Origin: an uncultured Lachnospiraceae bacterium
Lineage (GTDB): Bacteria > Bacillota > Clostridia > Lachnospirales > Lachnospiraceae
DNA length: 63,534 nucleotides
Reading direction: 5' to 3'
NCBI GenBank assembly: GCA_947626395.1
Contig: CANQRU010000017.1
Coordinates: 1 to 63,534 of the forward strand
In this document: positions 24,986 to 44,950 of the stretch, piece by piece
How the letters are laid out: every line of letters starts with the position of its first letter
How positions within the stretch are numbered: position 1 is the stretch's first letter
Translations under genes and position numbers: made by a program
The notes under the pieces: generated by a model
What the model was told of the DNA's origin: nothing
Databases searched by the model: none
What the model saw: only the letters and a program-made list of their open reading frames with translations

Positions 24986-25026
24986 AATACAAAAAACGCA
25001 TCACTGGCGCGTTTTTTGCATACTGA
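24986..25026 (+). repeat. 41-bp hairpin repeat, copy A (also a bidirectional terminator)
   Basis: Head AATA, left arm CAAAAAAC (24990-24997), 13-nt loop GCATCACTGGCGC, right arm GTTTTTTG (25011-25018) pairing perfectly, tail CATACTGA. The A/T arms make it a likely terminator for mtaB on the minus strand, with T-tracts on both strands. Confidence 0.85.
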
Positions 25027-25029
25027 CGT

Positions 25030-25070
25030 AATACAGGAAGATCGTCACCGGCGCTCTTCCTGCATGGAAA
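25030..25070 (+). repeat. 41-bp hairpin repeat, copy B (overlaps the end of mtaB)
   Basis: Head AATA, left arm CAGGAAGA (25034-25041), 13-nt loop TCGTCACCGGCGC, right arm TCTTCCTG (25055-25062), tail CATGGAAA. The mtaB stop codon (25045-25047) lies in the loop. The last 13 bp (TCCTGCATGGAAA) are repeated at 25071-25083. Confidence 0.88.
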
Positions 25071-26682
25071 TCCTGCATGGAAATACGGGCGGCGAAACCT
25101 CCGTTTCCGTCACATGCGTCAGCAGCACCAGCTCCTCATTTACCATCTTCTCCATCCGGCCCCGGACGATACGGCCGCGCATATTTTCCTCCCACGGGAT
25201 GACCGCCTTCACATACTCGCGGGTATGGCCCACCAGGTATTCCGCGCCCTCCGCCGTGACCGTTTCCTCCATGAGAACTTCCCGCTCTTCCCCCAGAAAT
25301 AATCTCCGGTAGGCAAGGGACGCCTCCGCGTCCATTCTGAGAAGGCAAGCGCTGCGCTCCTTTTTCACCGCCTCGTCCACCTGATCCGGCATCAGAGCCG
25401 CCCGGGTGCCTTCCCGGCGGGAGTAGGGGAACACATGCAGTTCGTAGAAACCAATCTTCTTTAGAAATGATACCGTCTGCGCGAACTCCTCTTCCGTCTC
25501 TCCGGGAAATCCCACGATCACATCCGTCGTGATCGCCGGACGATCGAAATATCTTCGGAGAAGACTGCAGCCCGCCGCGTACTCTTCCGCCGTATAATGG
25601 CGGTTCATACGTTTCAGCGTGGCGTCGCAGCCGCTCTGCAGCGACAGATGGAAATGGGGGCAGATCGTCCGAAGCGCCGCGATGCGGCGCACAAAATCCT
25701 CCGTTACGATCCGGGGCTCCAGGGAACCCAGGCGCAGCCGCGAAAGCCCCTTAACGCCGTCCAGCATTTCCAGCAGATCGATCAGCTTCAGCCGCGTCTC
25801 CTCGGGCATATCCATCCCGTAGGAACTGATATGGATGCCCGTGACCACGATCTCCCGGTAACCGGCGCCAACCAGTGTTTCCGCCTCTTTCAGAATGTCC
25901 GCCGCAGCCCGGCTCCGGACCCGGCCTCTGGCGTAGGGAATGATGCAGTAGCTGCAGAACTGGTTGCAGCCATCCTGGATCTTGATGAACGCCCTGGTGT
26001 GCTCCGCTGTGGTGCTGATCGAGAGGGATTCGTATTCATGGTCGGACGCGATGTCGATGACGCTGGCGAACCCGCTGCCGGACTGCGTTCTTCTGGCCGC
26101 CGGTTCTGCTTCTATGGCTGTATTGCGGGACTGGGAATCTGACGGTGAAGACTTCTCCGCTTCAGTCTGCGTAGTCTGACCGTCCGTCATGGGCATCCTA
26201 TGCCGTTCTTCTGTCTGCGGGGTCCGGTCTGCCTCAGACAAATGCCGGTTCTCCTGCGCCTGCCCGAGCCGATCCGCCCCAGACAAATGCCGGCGTTCTT
26301 CCGCCTGCGCGGACCGGCCAGCTGCATCGGAGGTCTCTGCCGCAAAATACTCTTCCAGGATCCTGACCAGATCCTTCTTCCGGTTGTTGCCGATGATCAC
26401 ATCCACCGCGTCGTCGCCCTGCAGCCTGTCCGCGGCTACCTGCACATAGCAGCCGGCCGCGACCACCACCGCTTCCGGGTTCCGCTTCTTCGCCCGGTGC
26501 AGCATCTGGCGGGACTTTTTGTCGGCGATATTGGTCACCGTGCAGGTGTTGATCACATAGACGTCGGCTTTTTCTTCGAACGGCACGATCTCATAGCCGG
26601 CTTCCTTAAGAAGCTGGGCCATCGCCTCGGTCTCGTATGCGTTTACCTTACATCCCAGATTGTGCAGAGCAGCCTTTCTCAT
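25045..26682 (-). CDS. mtaB: tRNA t6A37 methylthiotransferase with a repeat-bearing insertion
   Basis: Adds a methylthio group to t6A37 of tRNA, a radical SAM enzyme with two 4Fe-4S clusters. 545 aa, about 110 longer than usual. The N-terminal MTTase domain (1-115) has Cys at 11, 47 and 78 (LGCKVNA, VINTCTVTN, AAGCYV). Residues about 117-205 are an extra linker rich in Glu, Arg, Ser and Gln with imperfect 15-residue repeats (AEERRHLSGADRLGQ, AQENRHLSEADRTPQ, TEERHRMPMTDGQTTQ). The radical SAM core follows with CNQFCSYCIIPYARG, then a TRAM domain. The last residues PPVFPCRISMQEERR are encoded by the hairpin repeat copy B. GGGGAGAAG precedes the ATG. Confidence 0.93.
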   Translation of the reverse strand: MRKAALHNLGCKVNAYETEAMAQLLKEAGYEIVPFEEKADVYVINTCTVTNIADKKSRQMLHRAKKRNPEAVVVAAGCYVQVAADRLQGDDAVDVIIGNNRKKDLVRILEEYFAAETSDAAGRSAQAEERRHLSGADRLGQAQENRHLSEADRTPQTEERHRMPMTDGQTTQTEAEKSSPSDSQSRNTAIEAEPAARRTQSGSGFASVIDIASDHEYESLSISTTAEHTRAFIKIQDGCNQFCSYCIIPYARGRVRSRAAADILKEAETLVGAGYREIVVTGIHISSYGMDMPEETRLKLIDLLEMLDGVKGLSRLRLGSLEPRIVTEDFVRRIAALRTICPHFHLSLQSGCDATLKRMNRHYTAEEYAAGCSLLRRYFDRPAITTDVIVGFPGETEEEFAQTVSFLKKIGFYELHVFPYSRREGTRAALMPDQVDEAVKKERSACLLRMDAEASLAYRRLFLGEEREVLMEETVTAEGAEYLVGHTREYVKAVIPWEENMRGRIVRGRMEKMVNEELVLLTHVTETEVSPPVFPCRISMQEERR

Positions 26683-26760
26683 TGATCTTCTCCCCGGCTT
26701 AATGCCCTTACGTTTGTCTTACATTTTATATTCTTTTTACTTTTTCATGCAATCTGTCTA

Positions 26761-26789
26761 TTGACTTTTCTCCGGCCAATCGCTACTAT
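26761..26789 (+). promoter_or_regulatory. Promoter of the HPr-like gene
   Basis: TTGACT (26761-26766) and TACTAT (26784-26789), 17-bp spacer, + strand. Transcript start near 26796, leader about 60 nt. Confidence 0.75.
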
Positions 26790-26855
26790 TACGGTAGACG
26801 CCGGAGGGCGCCTATCACAGCAACAACACCTGACAGAATCAAGGAGGCATTTTAC

Positions 26856-27095
26856 ATGAAAACCGTACGTATTTCGCTTAATTCGATTGATAAAGTAAAA
26901 TCGTTTGTCAACGATCTTTCTAAATTCGACGTGGATTTTGACCTGGTATCCGGCCGATATGTGATCGACGCCAAGTCCATCATGGGCATCTTCAGCCTGG
27001 ATCTTTCCAAGCCCATCGACCTGAATATCCACGCGGAGGCGGAACCGGTCATCAGCGAGATCATGAGCGTGCTGACGCCCTATCTTCTCAAATAA
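26856..27095 (+). CDS. HPr-like protein lacking the active-site histidine
   Basis: 79 aa of HPr fold. The second helix region, DAKSIMGIFSLDLSKPI, matches the KSIMGVMSL segment around the regulatory Ser46 of HPr. The first helix region, where HPr has the phosphorylated His15 in a GLHARPA motif, reads LNSIDKVKSFVNDL with no His. It thus cannot act as a PTS phosphocarrier; by analogy with B. subtilis Crh it may be a regulatory protein phosphorylated only on Ser. It has its own promoter, an AAGGAGG site and a strong terminator, and stands alone. Confidence 0.85.
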   Translation: MKTVRISLNSIDKVKSFVNDLSKFDVDFDLVSGRYVIDAKSIMGIFSLDLSKPIDLNIHAEAEPVISEIMSVLTPYLLK

Positions 27096-27184
27096 GCGCG
27101 GCGCCGTTCATAACTTTCCGCGGAACCGGGCCCCCGGGCGGGGCTTCCCGCGCGGCGCGGATAAAGTACAAATCTGCAAAGCAC

Positions 27185-27217
27185 AGAACCTGCTGTCATG
27201 GCAGGTTCTTTCTATTT
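27185..27217 (+). terminator. Terminator of the HPr-like gene
   Basis: AGAACCTGC (27185-27193), loop TGTCATG, GCAGGTTCT (27201-27209), then TTCTATTT. Confidence 0.9.
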
Positions 27218-27255
27218 CCATGTGAACAGAGCGCCAGTGAATTTCTGTTCGCATT
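27215..27255 (-). repeat. 41-bp hairpin repeat, copy C
   Basis: Read on the minus strand: head AATG, left arm CGAACAGA, 13-nt loop AATTCACTGGCGC, right arm TCTGTTCA (seven of eight pair), tail CATGGAAA. It is joined head-to-tail to copy D, sharing two A residues. Confidence 0.82.
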
Positions 27256-27294
27256 TCCATGCAGAAATGCAGCCAGTGGTATGCTTTCTGTAAT
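27254..27294 (-). repeat. 41-bp hairpin repeat, copy D
   Basis: Read on the minus strand: head ATTA, left arm CAGAAAGC, 13-nt loop ATACCACTGGCTG, right arm CATTTCTG (outer six pair), tail CATGGAAA. A decayed copy that keeps the CACTGGC core at the same loop position. Confidence 0.78.
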
Positions 27295-27331
27295 TATGTC
27301 ACATTGCCCGAAACTGTACCTGGCTGGTTCC

Positions 27332-27409
27332 CACAATTTATTTTCACAATTTGACTTTGCGGTTTGTCCTCACAATTTGACTCCACGATTTGGTCTCACG
27401 GTTACTCCC
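27332..27409. repeat. Six 13-bp tandem repeats (iteron-like)
   Basis: Six units with exact 13-bp period, consensus CACAATTTGACTC: CACAATTTATTTT, CACAATTTGACTT, TGCGGTTTGTCCT, CACAATTTGACTC, CACGATTTGGTCT, CACGGTTACTCCC. They lie between two convergent genes (HPr-like and thiI) and cannot be a simple promoter array for either. Function unknown. The rest of the 27096-27480 gap is the terminator and repeat copies C and D. Confidence 0.8.
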
Positions 27410-27480
27410 ACATCATATAGCCTCTTCGGTCGGACAACCGAGCCGACACATACATAATCGCGCACAGAGCGCACACCGCC

Positions 27481-28665
27481 TCAGCCACAGCGGATAACTT
27501 CCCGCGTGGAAACCGCCGTCTCCACCAGCTCCTCGATCTTCCCGGCAAGCTTCGCTTCCGACTTGCGGATCGCCTTAAGCACCGGCTTCGTCACCGGATG
27601 CTTCGCCACGAAGATCGTGCAGCAGTCCTCGTAAGGCAGGATCGACGTCTCATAGGTGCCGATCTTCTCGGAGATATCCACGATCTCCTGCTTGTCGAAG
27701 GCGATCACCGGCCGGAAGACCGGAAGCGTACACACGTCGTTGGTAGCCGCCAGCGACTGAACCGTCTGGGACGCCACCTGGCCGATGCTCTCGCCGGTGA
27801 CAAGCGCCAGGCTTCCGGTCTCGCCGGCGATCTGCTCCGCGATCCGCATCATGTACCGCCGCATGATGATCGTCAGTTCCTCATGGGGGCAGGTCTCGTA
27901 GATCGTCATCTGGATATCCGTAAAATTCACCACATGCAGCTCGATGGGCCCCGAATACTGCGCCACCAGCTTCGCCAGATCCACCACCTTCTGCTTCGCC
28001 CGCTCGCTGGTGTAGGGCGGCGCGTGGAAATAGACCGCGTCGATCTTCACGCCGCGCTTCGCTACCATGTAACCGGCCACCGGGCTGTCGATGCCGCCGG
28101 AAAGCAGAAGCAGGGCCTTGCCGTTGGTGCCTACCGGCATGCCGCCGGGGCCGGGGATCATTTCCGAATAAATGTTGACGACGTTGTTCCGCACTTCCAC
28201 CCGCAGAAGCACATCCGGCTCGTGGACGTTGACCGTCATCTCCGGATACGCGCCGAGGATCGCCTCGCCCAGATCCCGGTTCATCTGCTCCGACGGAACC
28301 GGATAGCGCTTGTCGGCGCGGCGGGCCACCACCTTGAAGGTCAGATGCTTATCCGGGTATACCTGATCCAGATAGTCGACCACCTGACGCTTCAGGGCTT
28401 CGAACTCCCTCTCCTCCGTCTGGAACATGGGACAGATCCAGGCAATGCCGAAGACCTTCTTAAGCGCCTCGACCACATCCTCGTAATCATATTCCGTAAG
28501 CGCGGCCACATAGATGCGGCCGGCGTCCTTCGTGACGTCGAACTTGCCGTCCACGCGCTTTAAGGCGTGGCAGATGTGGCTGACCAAAGCGTCCTCGAAG
28601 AGGAACCGGTTCTTCCCTTTCGTGCCGATCTCGGCGTATTTTATTAAAAATGACTGATAAAGCAT
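27481..28665 (-). CDS. thiI: tRNA 4-thiouridine synthase / ThiI
   Basis: Activates tRNA U8 and passes sulfur from a cysteine desulfurase. 394 aa from the ATG at 28665 (AAGGAGAG upstream; longer frame to 28728 lacks a site). N-terminal ferredoxin-like and THUMP domains (residues 1-165), then the PP-loop ALLLLSGGIDSPVAGYM. It ends near residue 394, so it lacks the C-terminal rhodanese domain with the catalytic Cys found in E. coli ThiI, as in most Firmicutes. The cysteine desulfurase gene immediately upstream supplies the sulfur. Confidence 0.95.
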   Translation of the reverse strand: MLYQSFLIKYAEIGTKGKNRFLFEDALVSHICHALKRVDGKFDVTKDAGRIYVAALTEYDYEDVVEALKKVFGIAWICPMFQTEEREFEALKRQVVDYLDQVYPDKHLTFKVVARRADKRYPVPSEQMNRDLGEAILGAYPEMTVNVHEPDVLLRVEVRNNVVNIYSEMIPGPGGMPVGTNGKALLLLSGGIDSPVAGYMVAKRGVKIDAVYFHAPPYTSERAKQKVVDLAKLVAQYSGPIELHVVNFTDIQMTIYETCPHEELTIIMRRYMMRIAEQIAGETGSLALVTGESIGQVASQTVQSLAATNDVCTLPVFRPVIAFDKQEIVDISEKIGTYETSILPYEDCCTIFVAKHPVTKPVLKAIRKSEAKLAGKIEELVETAVSTREVIRCG

Positions 28666-28769
28666 GTTGTTTTCTCTCCTTACCTGCTGCTCCCTATCAA
28701 TGTACCGGCACGTTGCCGGGATTTCCACCCGGCTACCGGTACTGCTGTTTTATAATTGACGCGCTGCCT

Positions 28770-29924
28770 CTACTTCCTGCGGAACCGCCGCAACACCGGC
28801 AGGATCTCTTCCAGCTGCTGCGCCGCGTAGTCGATCTCTTCCTTCGTATTGAACAGTCCGAAACTGAAGCGCAGGGTGGAATCCAGCAGATCCTGCCGCA
28901 CGCCCACGCCTTTCAGCGTTCCGCTCAATCCCGGATGGTTCGAGGAGCAGGCGGATCCGGAAGACACATAGATCCCCTTCTCCTCCAGCGCGTGGAGCAG
29001 CACCTCGCTCTTCACGCCCTCAAAGCTGGCGCTTACGATCTGCGGCGCGCCTTCCCGTCCCGGCGGGTTGTTGAGCGTCACGCCGGGAAGCTGGGAAAAC
29101 TTCCTTTCCGCATATTCTTTCAGTTCGTACAAATGATCGATCTTCTGCGTGTGGTCCTTAAACATCTCCTCCACCGCCGCGCCCATACCGGCCACGCCCG
29201 GTACATTCTCGGTGCCGGAGCGAAGGCCCTGCTGCTGGCCGCCGCCGTAGATCAGGGGCTTTATCTTCACCCGGCTGTCAATATAAAGGAAGCCGACGCC
29301 TTTGGGGCCGTGCAGTTTGTGGGCGCTGACGCTTAAGAGATCGATACCCTGGCGTTTCGGCCGGATCTCGTATTTGCCGTAGGCCTGGATCGCGTCCACA
29401 TGGAACAAGGTATTCGGATTCTTCCGGCGGATGATCCGGGATATCTCCTCCACCGGCTCCACCGTACCCACTTCATTATTCACATACATGACGGAGACCA
29501 GGATCGTCTCCGGACGGATGCTCTCCTCAAGCTGCTCAAGGTCGATATGGCCCGCGTGATCCACCGGCAGGTACGTAACCTCGTACCCCTGCTCTTCCAG
29601 AAATCCAAGCGGGTTATAAACCGACGGATGCTCGATATTGCTGCTGATGATATGGTTTCCGGCCCGCTTATTGGCCATGGCCGTCCCGATCAGCGCCATA
29701 TTGTTGGATTCGGAACCGCCGGAGGTGAAAAGGATCTCCTTTTCCTGCACCTTCAGGGATCTGGCGATCACGGCGCGGGCATTGCGGATATAGTTCTCCG
29801 CCTCCATCCCTCTCGTATGTCTGGCCGAGGGGTTGGCGTAATCCTCGGTCATTGTTTTCACCACGATGTCGCGCACGCTGTCGAAGACCTTCGTGGTGGC
29901 GGAATTATCAAAATACGCCTGCAT
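28770..29924 (-). CDS. Cysteine desulfurase (NifS/IscS family), partner of ThiI
   Basis: PLP enzyme that takes sulfur from cysteine. 384 aa from the ATG at 29924 (GGAGGGTTCC upstream, then MQAYFDNSATTKV). PLP Lys in SVSAHKLHGPKGVGFLY; the sulfur-carrying Cys in SSGSACSSNHPGLSG, in the short-loop form. The order with thiI downstream resembles B. subtilis nifZ-thiI, so this copy probably serves tRNA thiolation rather than general cluster assembly. Confidence 0.93.
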   Translation of the reverse strand: MQAYFDNSATTKVFDSVRDIVVKTMTEDYANPSARHTRGMEAENYIRNARAVIARSLKVQEKEILFTSGGSESNNMALIGTAMANKRAGNHIISSNIEHPSVYNPLGFLEEQGYEVTYLPVDHAGHIDLEQLEESIRPETILVSVMYVNNEVGTVEPVEEISRIIRRKNPNTLFHVDAIQAYGKYEIRPKRQGIDLLSVSAHKLHGPKGVGFLYIDSRVKIKPLIYGGGQQQGLRSGTENVPGVAGMGAAVEEMFKDHTQKIDHLYELKEYAERKFSQLPGVTLNNPPGREGAPQIVSASFEGVKSEVLLHALEEKGIYVSSGSACSSNHPGLSGTLKGVGVRQDLLDSTLRFSFGLFNTKEEIDYAAQQLEEILPVLRRFRRK

Positions 29925-29994
29925 GGAACCCTCCAAAAACTTTCTGATGCGATACCGTATCAGAATCGTATAAAACACTGTCTGCCATCCGGCA

Positions 29995-30786
29995 TTATAT
30001 CAGGGCTTCCTCAGCCGCGAAGCTGCCGGCCGCGTTCGGATCCGAATACGTCTCCAACTGATACATGAGGATCGACAGAACGGCAAGTCCCGCGGTTTCT
30101 GTCCGCAGAATTCTCCGTCCCAGGGAAATGGGAGTAAATCCGGCGTTAAAGGCCTCGTCCACCTCGGCTCTCTCAAAGCCGCCCTCCGGACCGATCAGCA
30201 CTCCCACAGATGTCCCGGGGCGGACCGCTCCCACCGCCTGCGCAGTAACTTCCATCCCCCTGGCGTTCTCATAAGGGATCATTTTCACGTCAAGATCCGC
30301 CGCGTAAGCAAGCGCCCTGCCCAAATCCATCACCGGCGTCACCTCCGGCACCAGCACGCGGCCGGACTGCTTGGCGGCGCTCTCGGCGATGGCGTTCCAG
30401 CGGCGGACGCGGGATTCCTCCTTCTTCGCGTCCAGCTTCACCACTGTCCGCGAAGTATTTACCGGGATCATCTGGTACACGCCCAATTCCACGGCCTTCT
30501 GGATGATCAGTTCCATCTTGTCGCTCTTCGGAAGACCCTGGAACAGATAAATCTTCGCGGGCAGTTCGGTGTTCTCCGCCCGCGACAGGATCACGGCCGT
30601 CACCTGATCCTGCGCGATCTGTTCGATCCGGCAGAGATAATCCGTATCGGTTCCATTTCCCACCAGAATCTCCTCGCCCGGCTTCATGCGCAGCACGTTG
30701 CGGATATGGTTTACGTCCGGTCCGGCAATCGTGACCATGGCCGCGCCGCTGTCAATCTGTTCCTGTTTCACAAAGAAATGATACAT
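29995..30786 (-). CDS. rsmE: 16S rRNA m3U1498 methyltransferase
   Basis: 263-aa SPOUT methyltransferase. Start MYHFFVKQEQ at 30786; an extended frame to 30879 overlaps prmA and lacks a site. PUA-like N-terminal part with VNHIRNVLRMKPGEEI, SPOUT core with KSDKMELIIQKAVELGV, the knot with VGVLIGPEGGFERAEVD and ISLGRRILRTETAGLAVLS. It follows prmA, the usual pairing. Confidence 0.95.
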   Translation of the reverse strand: MYHFFVKQEQIDSGAAMVTIAGPDVNHIRNVLRMKPGEEILVGNGTDTDYLCRIEQIAQDQVTAVILSRAENTELPAKIYLFQGLPKSDKMELIIQKAVELGVYQMIPVNTSRTVVKLDAKKEESRVRRWNAIAESAAKQSGRVLVPEVTPVMDLGRALAYAADLDVKMIPYENARGMEVTAQAVGAVRPGTSVGVLIGPEGGFERAEVDEAFNAGFTPISLGRRILRTETAGLAVLSILMYQLETYSDPNAAGSFAAEEALI

Positions 30787-30848
30787 ACTGCATTCCACTC
30801 TCTTACGGTCGCTTTCTTTGCCGCGTTCTCCCGGCAGGAGCGGACTCG

Positions 30849-31805
30849 TTACTTTCTCCTCGCCGTCACACTGACCCACTCGCCCTGGCGCGTGATCTCA
30901 ATGATCTCCAGCTCCTCGTTGGCTTCGATCGCCTTTTTCACCGCGTCTTCTTTCATATCGATGATACCGGAAGTGATAAAGATCCCTCCGCGCTTCAGAT
31001 GAGGCGGAACCTCCGGCGTCAGCAGGATGATCACATCCGCCAGAATATTGGCTACAACGATGTCATAACGCTCATAACCTGCCCAGTCCTTGATAACCTT
31101 ATCATCGATCAGGTTGCCCTGGACTACATGAAACTGTTCCCCACTGATGCCGTTGGCCTCCATATTCTCGCCCACGGCCGTGATCGCGTTCTCATCCAGA
31201 TCCGTGCCGTAAACCTCTCCGGCTCCCAGCTTTAACGCCGTGATCCCCAGGATCCCGCTGCCGGTGCCCACGTCCAGCACTTTCGCCCCCGCGGTCATAT
31301 ATTTGCGGAGCTGACGGATGCACAGCTGGGTCGTCTCATGCTGGCCGGTACCGAACGCGGTGCCAGGATCAATCTGAATCAGAAGCCTGTCCTCCTGGCC
31401 CTCCGGGATCTCCTCCCACGTCGGCTTGATCAGGATATCATCCACCGTAAACGGCTTAAAATACTGTTTCCAGTTGTTGATCCAGTCTTTGTCCTCGGTT
31501 TCTGAGATCTCCATCTTCCTCTCGCCCAGATCCACGAACATAGCCAGATCGTTAAGTCCTTCCTCCACTGCTTTCAAGATCTCTTCCTCCCTGGAAATAT
31601 CCTCCAGATAGAAGCTGACCTTCGCCACGCCCTCATCCGGCGGCAGTTCCGGCAGGATATCGATGAACATGCCTTTCGTCTCGCTTTCCGTCAGGGGGAC
31701 ATTGTCCTCGATCTCGATCCCCTCGATGCCGATCTCATCGAACATGCTGCTGATCAGGTCCACCGCCTCCGTGGTGGTGGTCAGCGTGTATTTTCTCCAC
31801 TTCAT
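30849..31805 (-). CDS. prmA: Ribosomal protein L11 methyltransferase
   Basis: Trimethylates ribosomal protein L11. 318 aa; start MKWRKYTLTTTTEAV at 31805 with GGAGTGAC upstream. SAM motif I VLDVGTGSGILGITALKLGA, acidic loop TDLDENAITAVGEN, and NPILADV-type motif IVVANILADVIILL. First gene of the prmA-rsmE-desulfurase-thiI run. Confidence 0.95.
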   Translation of the reverse strand: MKWRKYTLTTTTEAVDLISSMFDEIGIEGIEIEDNVPLTESETKGMFIDILPELPPDEGVAKVSFYLEDISREEEILKAVEEGLNDLAMFVDLGERKMEISETEDKDWINNWKQYFKPFTVDDILIKPTWEEIPEGQEDRLLIQIDPGTAFGTGQHETTQLCIRQLRKYMTAGAKVLDVGTGSGILGITALKLGAGEVYGTDLDENAITAVGENMEANGISGEQFHVVQGNLIDDKVIKDWAGYERYDIVVANILADVIILLTPEVPPHLKRGGIFITSGIIDMKEDAVKKAIEANEELEIIEITRQGEWVSVTARRK

Positions 31806-34345: not shown

Positions 34346-34386
34346 AATGCAGGAAGGGCGTCACTGGCGTCCTTCCTGCATGGAAA
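34346..34386 (+). repeat. 41-bp hairpin repeat, copy E
   Basis: Head AATG, left arm CAGGAAGG (34350-34357), 13-nt loop GCGTCACTGGCGT, right arm CCTTCCTG (34371-34378, perfect), tail CATGGAAA. The stem extends outward to 10 bp (TGCAGGAAGG). Lies in the gap after proC on its downstream side. Confidence 0.88.
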
Positions 34387-36535: not shown

Positions 36536-38428
36536 TTATACTTCCTTGAAATCGCCGTCGATCACATCGTCGTCCGGCTGGGACGCGCCGCCCTGCGGGC
36601 CTGCGCCCATGCCGCCGCCCATTCCGGAACCGTCCCCCGCGCCTGCACCGGCTCCGCCGGCGCCCTGCATCGACTCATACATCTTCGTGAACAGAGCCTG
36701 GGCGCTGGCCATCAGCTTCTCCTTGCCGGCCTTGATGTCCTCCACCTGGGCGTCGGTCATCTGATCTACCGGAGCACGATTGATGGCTTCCTTCAGGGCG
36801 TTCAGATCCGCTTCCACCGACGCCTTGTCGCTGGCCGCGATCTTGTCTCCTACATCCTGCAGAGCCTTCTCGGTCTGGAACACGATGGAGTCGGCCTCAT
36901 TGCGGGTATCGATGGCTTCCTTGCGTTTCTTATCCTGCGCCTCATACTCGGCGGCTTCCTTCACGGCCTTCTCGATGTCGGAATCAGACATGTTGGAGCC
37001 GGAAGTAATGGTGATGTGCTGCTCCTTGCCGGTTCCCAGATCCTTGGCGGATACATTTACGATACCGTTGGCGTCGATATCGAAGGTAACCTCGATCTGC
37101 GGCATGCCTCGCCTTGCGGGCGGGATCCCGTCCAGACGGAACTGGCCGAGAGTCTTATTGTCGCGGGCGAACTGTCTCTCGCCCTGTACCACATGGATAT
37201 CGACAGCTTCCTGGTTATCCGCGGCCGTGGAGAAGATCTGGCTCTTCTTGGTCGGGATCGTGGTGTTGCGCTCGATCAGCCTGGTAGCTACGCCGCCCAG
37301 GGTCTCGATGGACAGGGACAGCGGGGTTACATCCAGCAGAAGGATGTCTCCGGCGCCGGCGTCACCCGCCAGCTTGCCGCCCTGGATGGCCGCGCCGATC
37401 GCCACGCACTCATCCGGATTCAGGGTCTTGCTGGGCTCATGGTTCGTCAGCTGCTTCACCTTATCCTGCGCGGAGATCATACGGGTGGAACCGCCTACCA
37501 GCAGGACCTTGCCCAGCTCGGAAGCCGTGATGCCGGCATCGCGCAGCGCGTTCTGCACCGGAACCGCCGTCTTCTCGATCAGGTCATGGGTCAGCTCATC
37601 GAACTTCGCCCTGGTCAGGTTCATATCCAGATGCTTCGGTCCGTCGCTGGTGGCCGTGATGAACGGCAGGTTAATATTGGTTGTGGTCGCGGTGGAAAGC
37701 TCCTTCTTCGCCTTCTCAGCCGCCTCTTTCAGTCTCTGAAGGGCCATCTTGTCATTGGACAGATCCACGCCTTCCGCCTTCTTGAATTCTGTGATCATCC
37801 ACTGTGTCACGCGGTTGTCGAAGTCGTCGCCGCCCAGATGGGTATCGCCGTTGGTGGACAGAACCTCGATGACGCCGTCGCCGATCTCAATGATGGACAC
37901 ATCGAAGGTACCGCCGCCCAAATCGTATACCATGATCTTCTGCTCTTTCTCATTGTCCAGGCCGTAGGCCAGAGCGGCCGCCGTCGGCTCGTTGATGATA
38001 CGCTTCACATCCAGGCCCGCGATCTTGCCGGCGTCCTTGGTTGCCTGACGCTGCGCGTCGTTGAAATACGCCGGAACTGTGATAACGGCCTCGGTAACCG
38101 GCTCGCCAAGGTAGCTCTCCGCGTCGGCTTTCAGCTTCTGCAGGATCATGGCCGAGATCTCCTGGGGAGTATATCTCTTGCCGTCGATGTCTACCTTATA
38201 ATCGGTTCCCATATGCCTCTTGATCGAGGAAATGGTCTTGTCAGCGTTGGTGACGGCCTGACGCTTGGCCGGCTCGCCCACCAGACGCTCGCCGGTCTTC
38301 GTGAACGCCACGATGGACGGGGTCGTGCGGACGCCCTCCGCGTTGGCGATAACGGTCGGCTTGCCGCCTTCCATGACTGCTACGCAGCTGTTGGTTGTTC
38401 CTAAATCGATTCCTATGATCTTGCTCAT
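36536..38428 (-). CDS. dnaK: Chaperone DnaK
   Basis: Hsp70 chaperone, 630 aa. ATPase motifs [33 protein letters not shown] and [10 protein letters not shown]; the C-terminal lid ends in a Gly-rich run and [13 protein letters not shown]. Lies after grpE, separated from it by a 183-bp repeat-filled gap. Confidence 0.98.
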
Positions 38429-38470
38429 GATTTTTTCCTCCTACATATATATTTGAAATTGATTATTTCC

Positions 38471-38607
38471 GTTCGCTAAGTGCCGGCGGGTATGTTCCGC
38501 TCGACTAACCTCACGCTTCGCCTTCCGGCTCGCGTTCGCTAAGTCTCGGGAACGACGTTCGCACTAACCTCGCTCTTCGCCTATCGGCTCGCGCTCGCTA
38601 AGTGCTC
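38471..38607. repeat. Tandem repeat of about 61 bp between dnaK and grpE
   Basis: GTTCGCTAAG recurs at 38471, 38534 and (GCTCGCTAAG) 38594, giving periods of 63 and 60 bp. Between, ACTAACCTCACGCTTCGCCT (38504-38523) matches ACTAACCTCGCTCTTCGCCT (38563-38582). Each unit can fold through GGCGAAGCG/CGAGCC sequences. It is in the transcribed grpE-dnaK spacer on the minus strand. No coding frame. Confidence 0.75.
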
Positions 38608-38611
38608 ACAG

Positions 38612-39391
38612 TCAGTTCGCCACCTGCACCATGCTGTGCCTTACAACGGTGTCGCGGTAGATGTAGCCTTTCTGGAACTCCTGGGCGACTATGTTCTCGC
38701 CCAGGTTCTCATCCTCCACATGCATCACGGCGTTATGGAAGTTGGGATCGAAGGGCTGGCCCACGGCCTCGATGGGCTTCACGCCGGCTTCCTCCAGGTT
38801 CTTAAGAAGCTGCTTGTAGATCATATCCATGCCTTCGGCGAAGGGAGTTCCCTTAGCGTCCTCCGGCACAGTGGCCAGGCCCCGCTCAAAGTTATCGATC
38901 ACCGGCAGCATCTTCTCGATGATGCTCCTGGCTCCCACCTCGAACATGGCCGACTTCTCTTTCTCGGTGCGCTTGCGGAAGTTATCGAACTCCGCCATCT
39001 GGCGCTTCAGCTGATCGGTCAGGTCCTCGATCTTCTGATCCTTCGGGTCTTTCTTTTCTTTCTTCCTGCCGAATACATGCCATTTGCCGTCGGACGCGGG
39101 CTCCGGGCCGTCCTGCGCGCTGTCCGCGCCTTCTTCCGGTTCGGCTTCCTGCGCATCCTCCGCGGCTTCCCCGTTCCCGGCTTCTGCATCCGCCGCTTTG
39201 CCGCCGGCGTCCGCCGTCTGCGCATTCTCCGCTCCGGCGCTGTCTTCCGTCTCCGCCCCGGCGTCCTCTGCAGGCCCGCCTGTAGCGTCTACTTCCTCGG
39301 CGTCAGACCAGCCGTCGTCCTCTCCGGACTTCTCCGGCTCCGCCTTATTCAGCTCATCCTCATATATTTCCTCATGTGCCTTGCTGTCCAC
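38612..39391 (-). CDS. grpE: Nucleotide exchange factor GrpE
   Basis: 259 aa. The N-terminal 110 residues are an Ala/Glu/Asp/Gly-rich tail, long for the family and low in complexity; then a coiled coil (IEDLTDQLKRQMAEFDNFRKR) and the C-terminal GrpE signature with GVKPIEAVGQPFDPNFHNAV and VVRHSMVQVAN. Sits between hrcA and dnaK. Confidence 0.96.
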   Translation of the reverse strand: MDSKAHEEIYEDELNKAEPEKSGEDDGWSDAEEVDATGGPAEDAGAETEDSAGAENAQTADAGGKAADAEAGNGEAAEDAQEAEPEEGADSAQDGPEPASDGKWHVFGRKKEKKDPKDQKIEDLTDQLKRQMAEFDNFRKRTEKEKSAMFEVGARSIIEKMLPVIDNFERGLATVPEDAKGTPFAEGMDMIYKQLLKNLEEAGVKPIEAVGQPFDPNFHNAVMHVEDENLGENIVAQEFQKGYIYRDTVVRHSMVQVAN

Positions 39392-39398
39392 GTCTCAT

Positions 39399-40436
39399 CT
39401 ACCTCTCTTCTTTTTTAAAGGTGGTTTCCAGCTGGACCATCAATGTCCTCAGGGTCCTGAGCACCTTCTCGTAGTCCATCCGTTTGGGTCCGATGATTCC
39501 TATGGTTCCACGGATGCCCTCTCCCAATTCATAATTGGCGGTCACCACGCTGCAGTCCCTCATGGCCTGCACCGGTGATTCTTCCCCGATATAGACCTGG
39601 ATCCCTGTTCCATTCTCTCCGTCGTCGCCGGTGTCCACCAGATCCTTCAAAAGCTCCGTATGCTCCAGCGTCTGCAGAAGCTCGCTGGCTTTCTGGTTAT
39701 CGCTCAGTTCCGGATATTTGAAAATGTTCGTGGCCCCGCTGGTGTAGATCTGCAGATCCTCCGAATCCGCCCGGATCACTTCCGCCACCTGCTCAAGCAC
39801 CAGATCCACCACATCCGCATGGCTTCCCGCCTGCTGCTTCATGCGGCTGATCACGTCCAGATTGATCTCTTCGATGGTCAGGCCGTTTAAATTGCTGTTC
39901 AGCAGGATATTCATATTCAGGAGCTCATCGTCGTTCAGGATATCCCTCACATGGACGATCGTGTTCTTGATCAGATTGCCTTCCAGCACCGTGACGATCA
40001 GGAGCTTATCCTCATCCACCCGCGACAGCTGAATGAACTTCAGCTTGTTCTGCTGATAGCGGGGGCCGCTTATCAGCGCCGCATAGTTGGTATCGTTGGC
40101 CAGAAGCTTCGCCAGCCGCTTCAGAACCGATTCCAGGCGGTCGATCCGCTTGATCATCAGCTCCTGGACTCCGGCTGCCTCGCTGTCCTTCTCCAGCACG
40201 ATCTGATCCACATAGAAACGGTAGCCCTTATCCGACGGGATCCGCCCGGCGGAAGTATGAGGCTGTACGATATAGCCCATCTCCTCCAGATCGGACATCT
40301 CATTGCGGATCGTGGCGGAGCTCCATCTGTTGTCCACATATTTGGAAATGGTCCTGGATCCTACCGGCTCCCCGGTATCCATATAGTTCTTGATGATCGC
40401 CTTCAATATGGTGATCTTACGCTCATCCAGTTCCAT
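39399..40436 (-). CDS. hrcA: Heat-inducible transcription repressor HrcA
   Basis: 345-aa repressor of the heat-shock operon, which binds CIRCE. N-terminal winged helix with GEPVGSRTISKYVDNRWSSA and TIRNEMSDLEEMGYI; the GAF-like middle and C-terminal VIIGPKRMDYEKVLRTL match the family. GAAAGGAG precedes the ATG at 40436. First gene after the CIRCE operator. Confidence 0.97.
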   Translation of the reverse strand: MELDERKITILKAIIKNYMDTGEPVGSRTISKYVDNRWSSATIRNEMSDLEEMGYIVQPHTSAGRIPSDKGYRFYVDQIVLEKDSEAAGVQELMIKRIDRLESVLKRLAKLLANDTNYAALISGPRYQQNKLKFIQLSRVDEDKLLIVTVLEGNLIKNTIVHVRDILNDDELLNMNILLNSNLNGLTIEEINLDVISRMKQQAGSHADVVDLVLEQVAEVIRADSEDLQIYTSGATNIFKYPELSDNQKASELLQTLEHTELLKDLVDTGDDGENGTGIQVYIGEESPVQAMRDCSVVTANYELGEGIRGTIGIIGPKRMDYEKVLRTLRTLMVQLETTFKKEER

Positions 40437-40471
40437 GTTCCTGCTCCTTTCATCCGTTTCTCATTCGGTTG

Positions 40472-40498
40472 TTAGCACTCATCAGCTTCGAGTGCTAA
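40472..40498 (-). promoter_or_regulatory. CIRCE operator
   Basis: A perfect TTAGCACTC (40472-40480), 9-nt spacer, GAGTGCTAA (40490-40498): the HrcA binding site, in the leader between the promoter and hrcA. Indicates autoregulation of the operon by HrcA and GroEL. Confidence 0.98.
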
Positions 40499-40511
40499 TT
40501 CCTACGTTCTT

Positions 40512-40540
40512 AATATATTACTTCCCCCAATATTTGTCAA
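40512..40540 (-). promoter_or_regulatory. Promoter of the hrcA-grpE-dnaK-dnaJ operon
   Basis: TTGACA (40535-40540) and TATATT (40512-40517) on the minus strand, 17-bp spacer; start near 40505, just upstream of CIRCE. Confidence 0.9.
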
Positions 40541-40598
40541 TACCTTTTTCTAAAATATTTTTGTTTTCTTACGCTTTTCCTACATTTCTTCATCGTAC

Positions 40599-40626
40599 TT
40601 GACTTTTAACACATTTGTAATATAAT
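40599..40626 (+). promoter_or_regulatory. Promoter of the first 3D-domain gene
   Basis: TTGACT (40599-40604) and TATAAT (40621-40626), 16-bp spacer, on the + strand; divergent from the hrcA promoter. Confidence 0.8.
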
Positions 40627-40677
40627 TGTAATTGGTAGATTTTCCCCAACAAAAGAAACGTATGTGAGGTATGCATT

Positions 40678-41691
40678 ATGAAGGATAATATCAGAAAATA
40701 CCTGACCGCCGCGCCGCTTGTCCTGGCCCTCGGCCTTGCCTGCAGCATCCCGGTCATGGCGGAACCGTCCGGTCACCTGGACTGGGCCAACCGCTATACG
40801 ATCGCCGGATGGTCATGGGATTCGGCCGATCCCGATCAGGCCCTCGAAGTAAAGATCGATATCACGCCGGCAGGCGCCAGGTCCGCAGTTAAAACCCTTA
40901 CCGTCACCGCGGAGAGCTACCGCGGCGACCTGGTATCGGGGGCGAACGACGGCAATCACGGATTCTTCTGTCCTGTTGACTGGTCACAGTTCTCCGGCGA
41001 TTCATTTACAGTAACGGCCTATGTCCTGTCCGGAGATAAGAAGGTTCCGCTTGCAGGCACGATCTCCTATGACGCTTCCGCGGAAGGGCCTGTACTGGCC
41101 GTTATTTCTTCCGATGGACAGACTGCTTCCGGATCCGGAACGGCCGGCGGCATCTTAGGGCCTGTGGCCGGCAGCGTATCCCTTCCTTCCGACGGCGATG
41201 AAAGCACGCCGCAGGAATCTGACGGGAAAGCCAATACCGAAGCCGGGCAGACAAAGGACGCCGACACGAAAGCCGGTAACGAAGCCGGGCAGCCGAAAGA
41301 AGACAAAGCGGATACCGTCTCCGGCCCCGTTTCCGGATCCTCTGATTCCGGATCAGACTCCGCGAAGGAATCTGTCTCCGAACCCGGATGGAAGAAAGGC
41401 ACGTCCCTGGGATATTTCACCATCACCGGTTACTGCAGCTGCGCTATCTGCTCCGGAGGCTGGGGACTGACCTACAGCGGCACCGTCCCTCAGGCGAATC
41501 ACACGATCTCCGCCGATCTGAATGTGCTTCCGCTCGGAACGAAGGTCATGATCAACGGCATCGTCTACACCGTCGAGGATAAAGGAAGCGGCGTGAACGG
41601 CAGCCATATCGACATTTACTGCGCCACGCATGCGGAGGCGGAAGCCCTCGGCACAACGTCCGCAGAAGTATTCTCAGTGATCGCCGAATAA
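40678..41691 (+). CDS. Secreted 3D-domain protein with N-terminal beta domain
   Basis: 337 aa. Signal peptide (MKDNIRKYLTAAPLVLALGL, cut near VMA-EP). Residues about 28-135 hold a beta-rich domain with IAGWSWDSADPDQALEVKI and a YRGDLVSGANDGNHGFFCP motif; a Ser/Gly/Asp-rich linker follows; residues about 238-337 are a 3D domain (GYFTITGYCSCAICSGGWGL, then ADLNVLPLGTKVMINGIVYT and EDKGSGVNGSHIDIY with the catalytic Asp triad). 3D domains occur in resuscitation-promoting and lytic transglycosylase-type wall enzymes (YabE/Rpf2). Probably cuts peptidoglycan. A similar gene follows 193 bp downstream. Confidence 0.88.
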   Translation: MKDNIRKYLTAAPLVLALGLACSIPVMAEPSGHLDWANRYTIAGWSWDSADPDQALEVKIDITPAGARSAVKTLTVTAESYRGDLVSGANDGNHGFFCPVDWSQFSGDSFTVTAYVLSGDKKVPLAGTISYDASAEGPVLAVISSDGQTASGSGTAGGILGPVAGSVSLPSDGDESTPQESDGKANTEAGQTKDADTKAGNEAGQPKEDKADTVSGPVSGSSDSGSDSAKESVSEPGWKKGTSLGYFTITGYCSCAICSGGWGLTYSGTVPQANHTISADLNVLPLGTKVMINGIVYTVEDKGSGVNGSHIDIYCATHAEAEALGTTSAEVFSVIAE

Positions 41692-41712
41692 GACACGATT
41701 GATCCGATCATT

Positions 41713-41743
41713 AAAAGACACGGTTTGCACCGTGTCTTTTTTT
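41713..41743 (+). terminator. Terminator of the first 3D-domain gene
   Basis: AAAAGACACGGT (41713-41724), loop TTGC, ACCGTGTCTTTT (41729-41740), then TTT. Confidence 0.93.
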
Positions 41744-41884
41744 GCCGGTATGCGCCGGGCCGCCGCAAACATTTTCGCATCCGCGCCTCTTACGATCCAG
41801 CTTTTCTTCATATCAAACCCCAACCGCGAATATATTATATCAGATCCCCGGATCGAATCTTAAAAGAAAGGACAAACATATACG

Positions 41885-42757
41885 ATGAAAATCCGCAAAA
41901 GGCCGGCCGCCCTGACGGCGGCTTTATTCATGATCCTTTTATGGACAATCCCGGCTGACGCCGGCCAGCAGACGACCGGATATCTCGACCGCACAGACGG
42001 ACGAACGGTCTACGGATGGGCGTGGGATCCCTCCAGCCCCGCTTCCGCCGTAGACGTGCAGATCTCTGTCAGAAACACGGAGGACCATTCTCTTCTTTAT
42101 ACGCAGACATGCTCTGCCGGCCTCTACCGGGAAGACCTGCGGCAGATCGGGGACGGTTTCCATGCGTTTGCCGCGGATCTTGATCTTTCTTCATTCAGCG
42201 GCGGTTCCTGTCTGATCGAAGCTTCCTCCCAGGGCGCTCCTCTAAACGGAACGCTGTACTGGCAGGGAGAAGCTTTCCCGATACAGACTGAAAGCCCGGA
42301 TCCGCCGGAAATACCGCACAGACCGCTGGGGCCTCTAAGCGGATCCGATAACAGCCTTGCGGCAGCCGATTTCTCCACCGATAACGCCGCGGAAAACGCC
42401 TTCTCCACGGATATTGCCGCGGCTGTATCCTCACCCGCCGTTCCGGAAGCCGTCGCGGCTCCGCAGCCGCTTTCCCTCGGTACGTTCCGAACCACCGCCT
42501 ACTGTTCCTGCCGCCGCTGTTCCGGCCGCTGGGGAAGACTTACGAGCACAGGCGCTGTCGCTGTATCCCATCATACGGTCGCCGTCGATCCGCAGATCAT
42601 TCCCTACGGCACGAAGCTTATGATCGACGGAATCGTCTACACGGCTGAGGATGAAGGCAGCGGCGTCAGGGGCAGACATATCGATATCTATTGCGATACC
42701 CACGCCGAGGCTGCGGCTTACGGTATGCAGAGCAAAGAAGTCTTTCTCGTTCCGTAA
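41885..42757 (+). CDS. Second secreted 3D-domain protein (paralogue)
   Basis: 290 aa with the same layout as its neighbour: signal peptide ending near ADA, beta domain (TVYGWAWDPSSPASAVDVQI; REDLRQIGDGFHAFAADLDL), shorter linker, and a C-terminal 3D domain (FRTTAYCSCRRCSGRWGRLT; VAVDPQIIPYGTKLMIDGIV; EDEGSGVRGRHIDIYC). Tandem duplication is the simplest explanation. A terminator separates the two, so they are transcribed separately; no clear promoter was located for this copy. Confidence 0.87.
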   Translation: MKIRKRPAALTAALFMILLWTIPADAGQQTTGYLDRTDGRTVYGWAWDPSSPASAVDVQISVRNTEDHSLLYTQTCSAGLYREDLRQIGDGFHAFAADLDLSSFSGGSCLIEASSQGAPLNGTLYWQGEAFPIQTESPDPPEIPHRPLGPLSGSDNSLAAADFSTDNAAENAFSTDIAAAVSSPAVPEAVAAPQPLSLGTFRTTAYCSCRRCSGRWGRLTSTGAVAVSHHTVAVDPQIIPYGTKLMIDGIVYTAEDEGSGVRGRHIDIYCDTHAEAAAYGMQSKEVFLVP

Positions 42758-42827
42758 TCCGCAGTTTTATTTGCCGCGCCGGGTCTGATCCTAACCGCGT
42801 AAAACACCACCATGGCTCCGTACGCCC

Positions 42828-44213
42828 TTACGGCCTCTCCAGGAACCGGCGAAGCTCTTCAAGCCGCGCCTCAGCGTCCGCGCATCCCAGTTCATAAGCC
42901 CGCATGATCTCCTGCGGATCGCTGCAGGTACGGCTGATCGTCATCACCCGGCTGGGGCAGATGACAAACACGCTGCCTTCCTTCTCCAGCCTGCGGATCA
43001 GCCGGACCGTCTCGTTGTAGGTCTTGTGCCGGTGGCTCATCGCCGCCGTAAAACGCGGATAGCGGCAGTACAGGATATGTCCCGGCCCCACATGCTCCGG
43101 CGGCTTCACATAGGAAGCGTCGCGGGTCAGGACCACCACATTCTTCCGATAGCCCATTCCGATCATTCCCCGGATCGGAATGCTGTCGGTGCAGCCGCCG
43201 TCCAGAAGCTCCATTCCCTGATACCGGACGATACGGGAGACGAACGGCAGGGAAGCCGACGCCCGCACCGCATCGATCTGAGCCTTCATATCCGTGATCC
43301 GGATAAGCTCCGGCCGCCCGGTCCTGAGATTGCTGCATCCGGCGTAAAAGCGGGTCGGCGACGCCGCGAATGCCTCGTAATCATAAGGATCCAGTTTCTC
43401 CGGGATCTCGTGATAGCAGAACTGCGTATTCACCAGTTCGCCATGGCGCAGCAGATTGGAAAAACTCATAAACCGTTTATCCCGGCAATATTTCTTATAA
43501 TAGCGGATACTCCGGCCGCGCTGTCCGGAGACATAGGAGCAGCCGTGGACCGCCCCGGCGGACACGCCCAGTACGCCGTCAAACGCGATCCCATGTTCCA
43601 GAAATACATCCAGAACTCCCGCCGTGTAGATACCGCGCATTCCGCCGCCTTCCAGCACAAGACCCGTTCCGTAAGCCTTCTGAAACGCCAGCCGCTCCGA
43701 ACCATTTTCCAGATGAATGATCCCGCAGTACGCGAATCCATTTTTCTTAAGCATCCCTTGCATCACCGTGTTATCCCGGTGGGTGTCGATGCGCAGATTC
43801 CCGCAGCGGCTGAAGGCCCATCTGACGCAGAACGAGCCAGCCCCTTTCACGATACCGGCAGAAGCGATCCGGTGTACGACGCCGTAAGGAGCGCCGCTGA
43901 GCCACTGACCGTCTTCGATCACGCGGTAAGTCGGATCCTCTCCCTCCCTGTAATAAAATACCGCGGCGATCTCGCCGCCAGCCATACAGACATAGGAATT
44001 TCCTTCCTCGATATCCTGCCGGACCTGCCATTCCGGCGGATCCGATGTTCCCCACTGGTTCGGATTGCCGTGCTCCGCCATGAAACCGCGGGCGCGCTCA
44101 TAGACCGCCAGAACCTTCTCAAGCTGTTCCGGCCTTGTCTTCTCAACGCGCAGGCCGCAGAAGCCAATCTGCGTATTTCCGCCGCCAGTCTGTATATCTC
44201 TGCTCTCTTCCAT
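42828..44213 (-). CDS. Fusion of a GNAT acetyltransferase and a patatin-like lipase
   Basis: 461 aa. Residues about 15-185 are a GNAT domain (LEKVLAVYERARGFMAEHG; SAGIVKGAGSFCVRWAFSRC with the acetyl-CoA loop; RIDTHRDNTVMQGMLKKNGF). From about 190 a patatin phospholipase follows: oxyanion GGGMRGIYTAG, nucleophile elbow GVSAG, and catalytic Asp in DGG. Both halves look intact. The ATG at 44213 follows GAGGAATAGG; a frame to 44300 is not needed. An unusual fusion; bacterial patatins in this group normally stand alone. Function unknown, perhaps lipid modification. Confidence 0.87.
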   Translation of the reverse strand: MEESRDIQTGGGNTQIGFCGLRVEKTRPEQLEKVLAVYERARGFMAEHGNPNQWGTSDPPEWQVRQDIEEGNSYVCMAGGEIAAVFYYREGEDPTYRVIEDGQWLSGAPYGVVHRIASAGIVKGAGSFCVRWAFSRCGNLRIDTHRDNTVMQGMLKKNGFAYCGIIHLENGSERLAFQKAYGTGLVLEGGGMRGIYTAGVLDVFLEHGIAFDGVLGVSAGAVHGCSYVSGQRGRSIRYYKKYCRDKRFMSFSNLLRHGELVNTQFCYHEIPEKLDPYDYEAFAASPTRFYAGCSNLRTGRPELIRITDMKAQIDAVRASASLPFVSRIVRYQGMELLDGGCTDSIPIRGMIGMGYRKNVVVLTRDASYVKPPEHVGPGHILYCRYPRFTAAMSHRHKTYNETVRLIRRLEKEGSVFVICPSRVMTISRTCSDPQEIMRAYELGCADAEARLEELRRFLERP

Positions 44214-44276
44214 TTTCCTATTCCTCAAACAGTTCCATTTTCGCCGGTAACAATCAATCGTAACGCCGACAGGAAA

Positions 44277-44305
44277 AGTATAGCACGATCCGCCGCACAT
44301 TAGAA
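44277..44305 (-). promoter_or_regulatory. Promoter of the GNAT-patatin gene
   Basis: TTCTAA (44300-44305) and TATACT (44277-44282) on the minus strand, 17-bp spacer; the -35 is weak. Confidence 0.5.
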
Positions 44306-44333
44306 CCGTTTATTTTTCATTTTTCTCTTCCAA

Positions 44334-44356
44334 AGTATACCAAACTTTTGTATACT
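44334..44356. promoter_or_regulatory. Palindromic operator over the promoter of the small membrane-protein gene
   Basis: AGTATAC (44334-44340), 9-nt spacer, GTATACT (44350-44356): a perfect inverted repeat whose right arm supplies a TATACT -10 box. With TTCCAA 17 bp upstream as a weak -35 it could be an activator- or repressor-controlled promoter for the gene at 44425. Regulator unknown. Confidence 0.55.
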
Positions 44357-44424
44357 GAGTCTATAGACGTTGAAACCGGTCAACGCCGTAATCATACCAT
44401 ACATCTGCAAAAGGGGGTTTTACC

Positions 44425-44868
44425 ATGAGTGAACAGAAAACGCAGTCTTACGTAAATGAGGCAGAGGAACGCGCCGCCATCATGAAGCGGATCGAGGCGA
44501 GCAACGCGGCCCAGGAACGCTACGCGAAGAAGCAGTATAAGATGTCGCTGATCAGCGCCGGAGCCAATGTGATCGTGCTTTGTCTCGCCGTATTCCTGAT
44601 CTTTACGATGCTGCCGAAGATCAACGCGACCTTTGAGAACCTGAACGCGGTCATGGAGAATGTGGAGACGATCACCGAGGAGCTGTCAACCGTCGATATC
44701 GAAGGTATGGTGGGCAATATCGACGATCTGGTGGTCGGAAGCTCCGACAGTCTGAACCAGGCTATGAAGAAGATCAACGCCATCGATATTGAAAAGCTCA
44801 ACAATGCGATCGGGAACCTGAACGACGCGGTAGAGCCCCTGGCCAAATTCGCCAATATGTTCAAGTAG
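44425..44868 (+). CDS. Small membrane protein with a coiled-coil outer part
   Basis: 147 aa. Cytoplasmic basic/acidic N terminus, one membrane helix at about residues 48-63 (NVIVLCLAVFLIFTML), then a heptad-rich region (LNAVMENVETITEELSTVDI, NQAMKKINAIDIEKLNNAIG) likely to form a coiled coil. I recognise no family. The ATG follows AAAAGGGGG. Repeat copies F and G begin three bases after its stop codon and a strong terminator follows. Confidence 0.8.
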   Translation: MSEQKTQSYVNEAEERAAIMKRIEASNAAQERYAKKQYKMSLISAGANVIVLCLAVFLIFTMLPKINATFENLNAVMENVETITEELSTVDIEGMVGNIDDLVVGSSDSLNQAMKKINAIDIEKLNNAIGNLNDAVEPLAKFANMFK

Positions 44869-44870
44869 AA

Positions 44871-44911
44871 AATACAGGCAGGGCGTCACTGGCGCCTTGC
44901 TTGCATAGAAA
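44871..44911 (+). repeat. 41-bp hairpin repeat, copy F
   Basis: Head AATA, left arm CAGGCAGG (44875-44882), 13-nt loop GCGTCACTGGCGC, right arm CTTGCTTG (44896-44903) with two G-T wobbles at arm positions 3 and 7, tail CATAGAAA. Wobbles are stable only if read as RNA on the + strand. Confidence 0.85.
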
Positions 44912-44950
44912 TACAGTCAGGGCGCCGCCGGCGCTCAGTTCGTACGGAAA
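44910..44950 (+). repeat. 41-bp hairpin repeat, copy G (decayed)
   Basis: Head AATA, left arm CAGTCAGG, 13-nt loop GCGCCGCCGGCGC, right arm TCAGTTCG (poor pairing), tail TACGGAAA. Head-to-tail with copy F, sharing AA. A further sequence with CACTGACG and ATGGAAA follows at 44951-44989; TACAGTC at the start of G can pair with GACTGTA at its end. Confidence 0.65.

Follow-up and report, generated by a model that had tools for sequence, protein, structure and literature searches.

A hairpin repeat in one Lachnospiraceae genus that is probably a REP-like mobile element

What kind of element is the short hairpin repeat that recurs in contig CANQRU010000017.1 of an uncultured Lachnospiraceae bacterium (assembly GCA_947626395.1, hereafter the source genome)? 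The stretch analysed, called the window, comprises positions 1 to 63,534 of this contig. The repeat is probably a non-autonomous, hairpin-dependent mobile element resembling the repetitive extragenic palindromes (REPs), and not an RNA motif of messenger 3' ends. A preliminary description of the window had reported a 41-bp family of seven copies (A to G) with paired arms, a 13-nt loop and the shared tail CATGGAAA. All seven copies, with their fixed core and paired arms, lie where it placed them and the repeat is real, but the period is 39 bp, copies D and G are degraded, and an eighth, likewise degraded copy (H) has been added. With limits set from empty insertion sites, the commoner unit (type 1) is TAC-[arm]-CGTCACTGGCG-[arm]-GCATGGAAA and measures 39 bp, tandem copies being spaced by exactly that length; a stem of 8-11 bp surrounds the fixed core CGTCACTGGCG. 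The type-2 unit has the same head and core, the tail GCATACTGACGTAA and a length of 44 bp. Copy A, which ends in CATACTGACGT, is of this second type, and the tail is thus not common to all copies. The core of the supposed 13-nt loop is indeed fixed, but it holds a GCG/CGC stem and the apical loop is 7 nt. The hairpin foot, taken from an alignment of 110 copies, is AATAC / GCATGGAAA, with no GTAG or GGAG tetranucleotide, and CGTC sits within the hairpin core, not as an unpaired end tag. Rfam 15, at its gathering threshold, finds only a tRNA in the window and nothing that matches the repeat; the earlier remark that no named family has this consensus holds there and in the literature searched.

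Mobility is indicated by eight comparisons of filled sites with empty counterparts in relatives, in which the insertion is precisely 39 or 44 bp long and has caused no target duplication. The base before the insertion point is A, in one case G, and the base after it a pyrimidine; the usual site is AA|TA. At the site of copy A, a locus of genome G004 (L243) is empty and reads CATAACAA|TACAGG, whereas the window reads CATGACAA|44 bp|TACAGG; copy A therefore inserted at the head junction of copy B, unless G004 has lost it precisely. The HelD gene of G009 carries three in-frame units at a site that is empty in 10 of 10 aligned homologues. Six further empty/filled pairs (L125/L098, L121/L036, L015/L073, L020/L086, L036/L121 and L017/L119) came from searching joined flanks against the loci, where 36 of 184 queries had a junction-spanning match, mostly to the same or another filled locus. 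The empty sites GGCAA|CCTGAG and TTCRAA|T assign TAC to the unit, and the empty sites GAGCA|TAAAA and AAG|CRCAGG disfavour a duplication of AA. Some loci are orthologues in different species (e.g. L006/L091 and L043/L117) and enter the counts separately.

The end of a copy, GGAAA|TAC, recreates the target as an AA|TAC junction, which accounts for the head-to-tail growth of arrays; among 99 close neighbour pairs (<100 bp apart, in the loci), 97 are direct and 2 inverted. The period of exactly 39 would also suit local tandem duplication by replication slippage with hairpin-templated correction of the arms and no transposition, and quasi-palindrome correction could make arms co-vary. Such an origin is highly improbable. 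Of 16 arm positions, 6.19 differ between array neighbours (70 pairs) and 6.68 between random copies (p = 0.25), and since neighbours are as different as random copies the arrays are not slippage products. Copies of the same sequence also occur at unrelated sites, and the empty sites are precise.

The two arms show strong covariation, and the core and ends are constant. In 100 copies of the source genome, 601 of 800 arm pairs are Watson-Crick, compared with 483 +/- 11 when partners are shuffled (maximum 517, 2000 shuffles). Among 110 aligned copies, which are distinct and were sampled from the 179 in the loci, changes on both sides fill 182 cells against 83 +/- 15 after shuffling, and sliding the partner by 1-3 columns lowers pairing from 86.7% to 31-44%. 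The covariation first described is upheld by shuffle tests, but one of five measures shows no excess over shuffling, namely how many pairs have a double change at all (9 vs 8.0 shuffled, 155 of 500). Eight sequences seen at least three times (40 copies) are paired at 7.92 of 8 arm positions and 190 singletons at 5.95 of 8: pairing accompanies multiplication and is later lost. Some copies are chimeric, such as G009:C10:35494-35533, in which the left and right arms come from two subfamilies (CAAAAAACG with CTCTCCTCG), and these suggest exchange within the loop.

The source genome (3.46 Mb in 87 contigs) contains at least 111 type-1 copies, counted with arm positions open and up to 3 mismatches, compared with none for the reversed pattern, so the repeat is not a product of chance; at least 11 type-2 copies are present as well. 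Of 26 genomes surveyed in the genus, 14 carry type 1, with up to 183 copies (G002 76, G004 122, G009 183, G013 46, G018 79), and 15 carry type 2, with 60 copies in G023 and a maximum of 138 in G008, where type-1 copies number 13. No type-1 copy was found in 35 relatives outside the genus, and a covariance model found no match in 297 sampled genomes from other genera of the family (E <= 1e-4, strict filters). Among the genomes sampled, the repeat was found in one Lachnospiraceae genus. There it is not confined to the region first described, and arms outside the window co-vary too. Copy number, together with the empty sites and the near-perfect pairing of multiplied copies, bears out the earlier comparison with REP-like mobile hairpins. 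A pattern scan of GTDB genomes returned at least 101 records, and those listed are uncultured Lachnospiraceae metagenome-assembled genomes named Lapin, presumably from rabbit gut. As for spread by phages, the exact type-1 pattern had no match in IMG/VR.

The two unit lengths provide a built-in comparison, because 39 bp is exactly 13 codons and preserves the reading frame, whereas 44 bp breaks it. Five frames of the 39-bp unit, three sense and two antisense, are open, and each of them is found within genes; the sixth, which contains a stop, occurs only at two gene ends, one of them formed by copy B at the end of an mtaB-like gene. When units were excised in silico, 20 of 157 type-1 arrays lay inside genes with at least 25 codons on each side, compared with 0 of 45 type-2 copies (p = 0.009; limit 3 mismatches, genes called by a simple codon-usage caller written for this analysis and not by a published program). 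In all 20 the gene frame is unbroken. Without excision, 0 of 58 type-2 copies lie in genes, a biased figure, because a gene goes unrecognised once a 44-bp insert has disrupted its frame. The host genes include those for HelD, two LacZ-type beta-galactosidases, a GH95 protein and PtsI, and the inserts in one LacZ (L042) and in PtsI sit, within a few residues, between stretches aligned to solved homologues. The commoner unit can reside inside working genes because its length equals exactly 13 codons. In annotating these genomes one will come across 13-residue inserts, otherwise without explanation, in ordinary proteins.

Could the hairpin instead be under selection as a regulatory RNA at mRNA 3' ends, whether as a stabiliser, as an attenuator or as a hairpin that binds protein? 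Most copies are intergenic, at a median distance of 52 nt from a gene 3' end in the source genome and 72 nt at other loci; the arms co-vary, and 30 of the 45 copies that lie between convergent genes have the sense orientation relative to the nearest 3' end. Between tandem genes, however, 50 of 70 are antisense, and copies are present in both orientations. Those inside genes occupy five reading frames; in singletons 2 of the 8 arm pairs are gone, and across the source genome one arm pair in four is non-Watson-Crick. Nor does the repeat have the layout of an intrinsic terminator: its tail is GCATGGAAA, and four Ts within 16 nt 3' of the array follow 0 of 189 arrays. Two G-T wobbles in copy F had been taken to favour RNA function on the strand first described, but on that strand A.C mismatches outnumber G.T, by 96:54 in the 100 source-genome copies and by 181:120 in 202 distinct copies, which places G.T on the opposite strand. 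Because copies lie in both orientations, occupy genes in five frames and have mismatches that favour the other strand, a 3'-end RNA element in the orientation originally proposed is not supported, and we regard a selected 3'-end RNA as quite unlikely.

The strand first described is on the G-rich strand in 60 of 186 arrays, the opposite strand in 126 of 186; for the strand first described, the figure is 44 of 126 when arrays beside an A-run are left out, so that the bias persists (p = 0.0009), and for type 2 it is 17 of 58. The mismatches and the G-rich-strand bias both point to TTTCCATGC-hairpin-GTA as the probable active strand. For a REP-like mobile element, this strand would be on the lagging-strand template. 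A trans-acting enzyme, most probably a single-strand transposase of HUH/Y1 type or of similar function, would recognise the hairpin in its folded single-stranded DNA form and would cut and join it at AA|TA. The arms could drift freely so long as they pair, the core and ends being what the enzyme would read. After insertion most copies would decay, and 39-bp copies would be tolerated in genes as 13-residue inserts.

Several observations weigh against a mobile element of this kind. In principle, precise deletion could have produced the empty alleles, and the species compared have flanks that are 84-95% identical, which leaves single-base boundaries somewhat uncertain. The bias in strand amounts to about 2:1 and is linked in part to insertion beside T-tracts: closely 3' of 61 of 189 arrays lies an A-run, which is a T-tract when read on the opposite strand, and part of the bias may be due to targets behind terminators. 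Measured against gene-strand balance the bias is weak (p 0.04 to 0.08), orientation is mixed, as the figures for tandem and convergent genes given above illustrate, and type-2 arms lack the mismatch asymmetry (A.C 26, G.T 29). No mover was identified in a search that covered the Y1 and reverse transcriptase families, with genes between copies inspected by eye. No Y1_Tnp match (E <= 0.001) was found in five of the eight type-1-richest genomes (G002, G004, G009, G013 and G018); these are 80-93% complete, so that single absences mean little and the five together more. The same search found none in G023 despite its 60 type-2 copies.

The associated IS200/IS605-like TnpA that the preliminary description proposed to look for is not supported as the mobiliser. 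The one Y1 gene found in the source genome belongs to an IS200 insertion sequence (IS) whose end hairpins differ in sequence from the repeat, and it has no motif of the REP-associated tyrosine transposases (RAYTs). G001 has a Y1 fragment only, and extending the Y1 search to E = 10 in 11 genomes added only weak matches, with E values of 0.16 to 0.55 (G001, G002 and G021). No RAYT gene flanked by copies and bearing the NP(L/V)(R/K)xG motif was found. With one Y1 gene found in the source genome and none (E <= 0.001) in five of eight rich genomes, a Y1 transposase was rejected as the mover. Mobilisation of the REPs in trans by the IS200 TnpA of some of these genomes would be consistent with insertion without target duplication, which fits the IS200 family, and with IS200 left ends that directly abut the GTATT head of an element (at about 2065 in L144 of G008 and about 1295 in L148 of G012); in the source genome an IS200 lies about 43 bp from a copy. 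We nevertheless consider it unlikely, given the different end hairpins and the five rich genomes in which no Y1_Tnp was found. The adjacency is explicable without mobilisation, since ISs are reported to use REPs as targets (PMC1525189). In L144 the right IS flank, ACGTCAGTA, resembles the type-2 tail, and this IS may have inserted where two elements meet. In L165 of G001 (1650-1760) an IS200 remnant, without its left end, is fused to ACTGACGTAATAC directly 5' of an element.

Two other candidates were rejected. Reverse transcriptase (RVT_1) is present in 7 of 8 rich genomes, but it also occurs in repeat-free ones and one rich genome is without it; among 13 reverse transcriptase stretches, in 11 of which the frame was read, none contains a copy at up to 6 mismatches. 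By our own reading these proteins are of several kinds, several adjoining phage-like genes. The diverse reverse transcriptases of L205-L217, some of them beside phage-like genes, are possibly diversity-generating elements. For an autonomous copy, with a gene between two hairpins, the intervals of 250-2600 bp and 12 further stretches contained ordinary genes by eye and no recurrent transposase.

How does the element compare with known systems? As a palindrome of 39 or 44 bp that is present in tens to hundreds of copies and lies mainly behind genes, at times within them, it agrees with the broad sense of REPs (palindromes of 20-40 bp). CGTC-tagged REPs, including RPE-4 and RPE-6 of Rickettsia, have an unpaired CGTC end tag, an 8-9 bp stem, a 4-5 nt loop and a CCA tail, and inverted (HH) dimers predominate, direct ones being negligible (Di Nocera et al. 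2013, PMC3733652). Like them, the present repeat is a short, high-copy palindrome found mostly behind genes and in some cases inside them. They have no associated transposase, and for the present repeat none was found in searches for the Y1 and reverse transcriptase families or by eye among the genes between copies. Unlike them, it has CGTC in the hairpin core, and 97 of its 99 close pairs are direct. The main text of that paper contains neither 'Firmicutes' nor 'Clostridi'. GTAG REPs and REPINs with their RAYTs, for which single-strand cutting and joining has been proposed (PMC3733652, PMC2817692, PMC6006769), are likewise non-autonomous hairpins, but here there is no GTAG foot, pairs are direct instead of inverted, and no copy-flanked RAYT gene was found. 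Rickettsia palindromic elements (RPEs), alphaproteobacterial and 105-146 bp long, are tolerated in-frame in conserved proteins (PMC2229807), as the present element is in genes for conserved proteins (HelD, LacZ, PtsI and GH95); the size of 39/44 bp sets it apart, a distinction made by description and not by sequence comparison. IS200/IS605 elements have end hairpins, no larger target duplication and a lagging-strand preference (PMC6006769, PMC2817692). The repeat shares the hairpin, the short target, the lack of target duplication and, probably, the lagging-strand preference with elements derived from them, but the IS200 copies read in the genus have other end hairpins, other IS605-type elements not having been searched for.

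The 13-nt core is not mentioned in the literature searched, most subscription papers being beyond text search. Among the matches listed for Lachnospiraceae/REP and REP/RAYT/Firmicutes there is no such element by title, and the 2025 RepRanger paper (PMC12306157) contains neither 'Clostridi' nor 'Lachnospir'. In-frame palindromes and REPs without a transposase are known already, and the element described here lacks the defining tags and the inverted-pair layout. It would extend the range of REP/RPE-type mobile palindromes to Lachnospiraceae of the gut, with insertion boundaries that are exact, and it sharpens the question posed for CGTC REPs in PMC3733652, of which agent moves short palindromes when no transposase is known for them. 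A more far-reaching interpretation, which we offer tentatively and hold to be rather doubtful, is that of a new class of mobile hairpin DNA, present in Bacillota, moved by an enzyme other than Y1/HUH (or by a Y1/HUH enzyme yet unrecognised) and persisting as a 13-codon cassette that is neutral to the frame and can be read in five of the six frames. If so, the cassette would write short peptides into working proteins.

The window copies were located by a mismatch scan of 24 fixed positions, for which the reversed window yields a single match when up to 7 mismatches are allowed, and by the covariance model, in which A, B, C, E and F score clearly, at 34.8 to 65.4 bits. Copy A (type 2, TAC-hairpin-GCATACTGACGTAA) occupies 24988..25031 on the plus strand, its start having first been placed at the AATA of 24986, and is followed by copy B (type 1, 25032..25070, plus), a model match. 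Read on the minus strand, copy B provides the mtaB-like gene 25045-26682(-) with its final seven codons and its TGA stop. Copy C (type 1, 27215..27253, minus) was found by both methods and stands in direct tandem with the degraded type-1 copy D (27254..27292, minus; 5 mismatches in the scan). Copy E (type 1, 34348..34386, plus), a model match, has perfect arms. An array of three tandem units lies 3' of the gene 44425-44868(+): the type-1 copy F (44873..44911, plus), detected by scan and model, the degraded type-1 copy G (44912..44950, plus; 4 mismatches in the scan), and the degraded, newly added copy H (44951..44989, plus), with its scan match at 44950 and a weak model match (17.9 bits, E 0.016). 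Copies D and G are not in the model's window list and rest on the mismatch scan; as they adjoin C and F, overlap removal may be the cause.

A further match in the window, at 11418, has unpaired arms and is carried elsewhere by the same coding gene (L075/L165). This match and one at 1339 in L172 are taken as chance; both are included in the in-gene frame count (33/184), and that at 11418 also in the gene-orientation and gene-end counts. The mtaB-like gene contains, at 26215-26304, two 45-bp tandem repeats (15 codons each) that are unrelated to the hairpin and occur only there among the loci compared. The array region 44869-45000 is the same intergenic site as in the orthologues L231-L239. By eye, this site is without arrays in G013, G018, G021, G002 and G001 and carries differing hairpin-like arrays in G004, G012 and G009, and it is a possible insertion hotspot.

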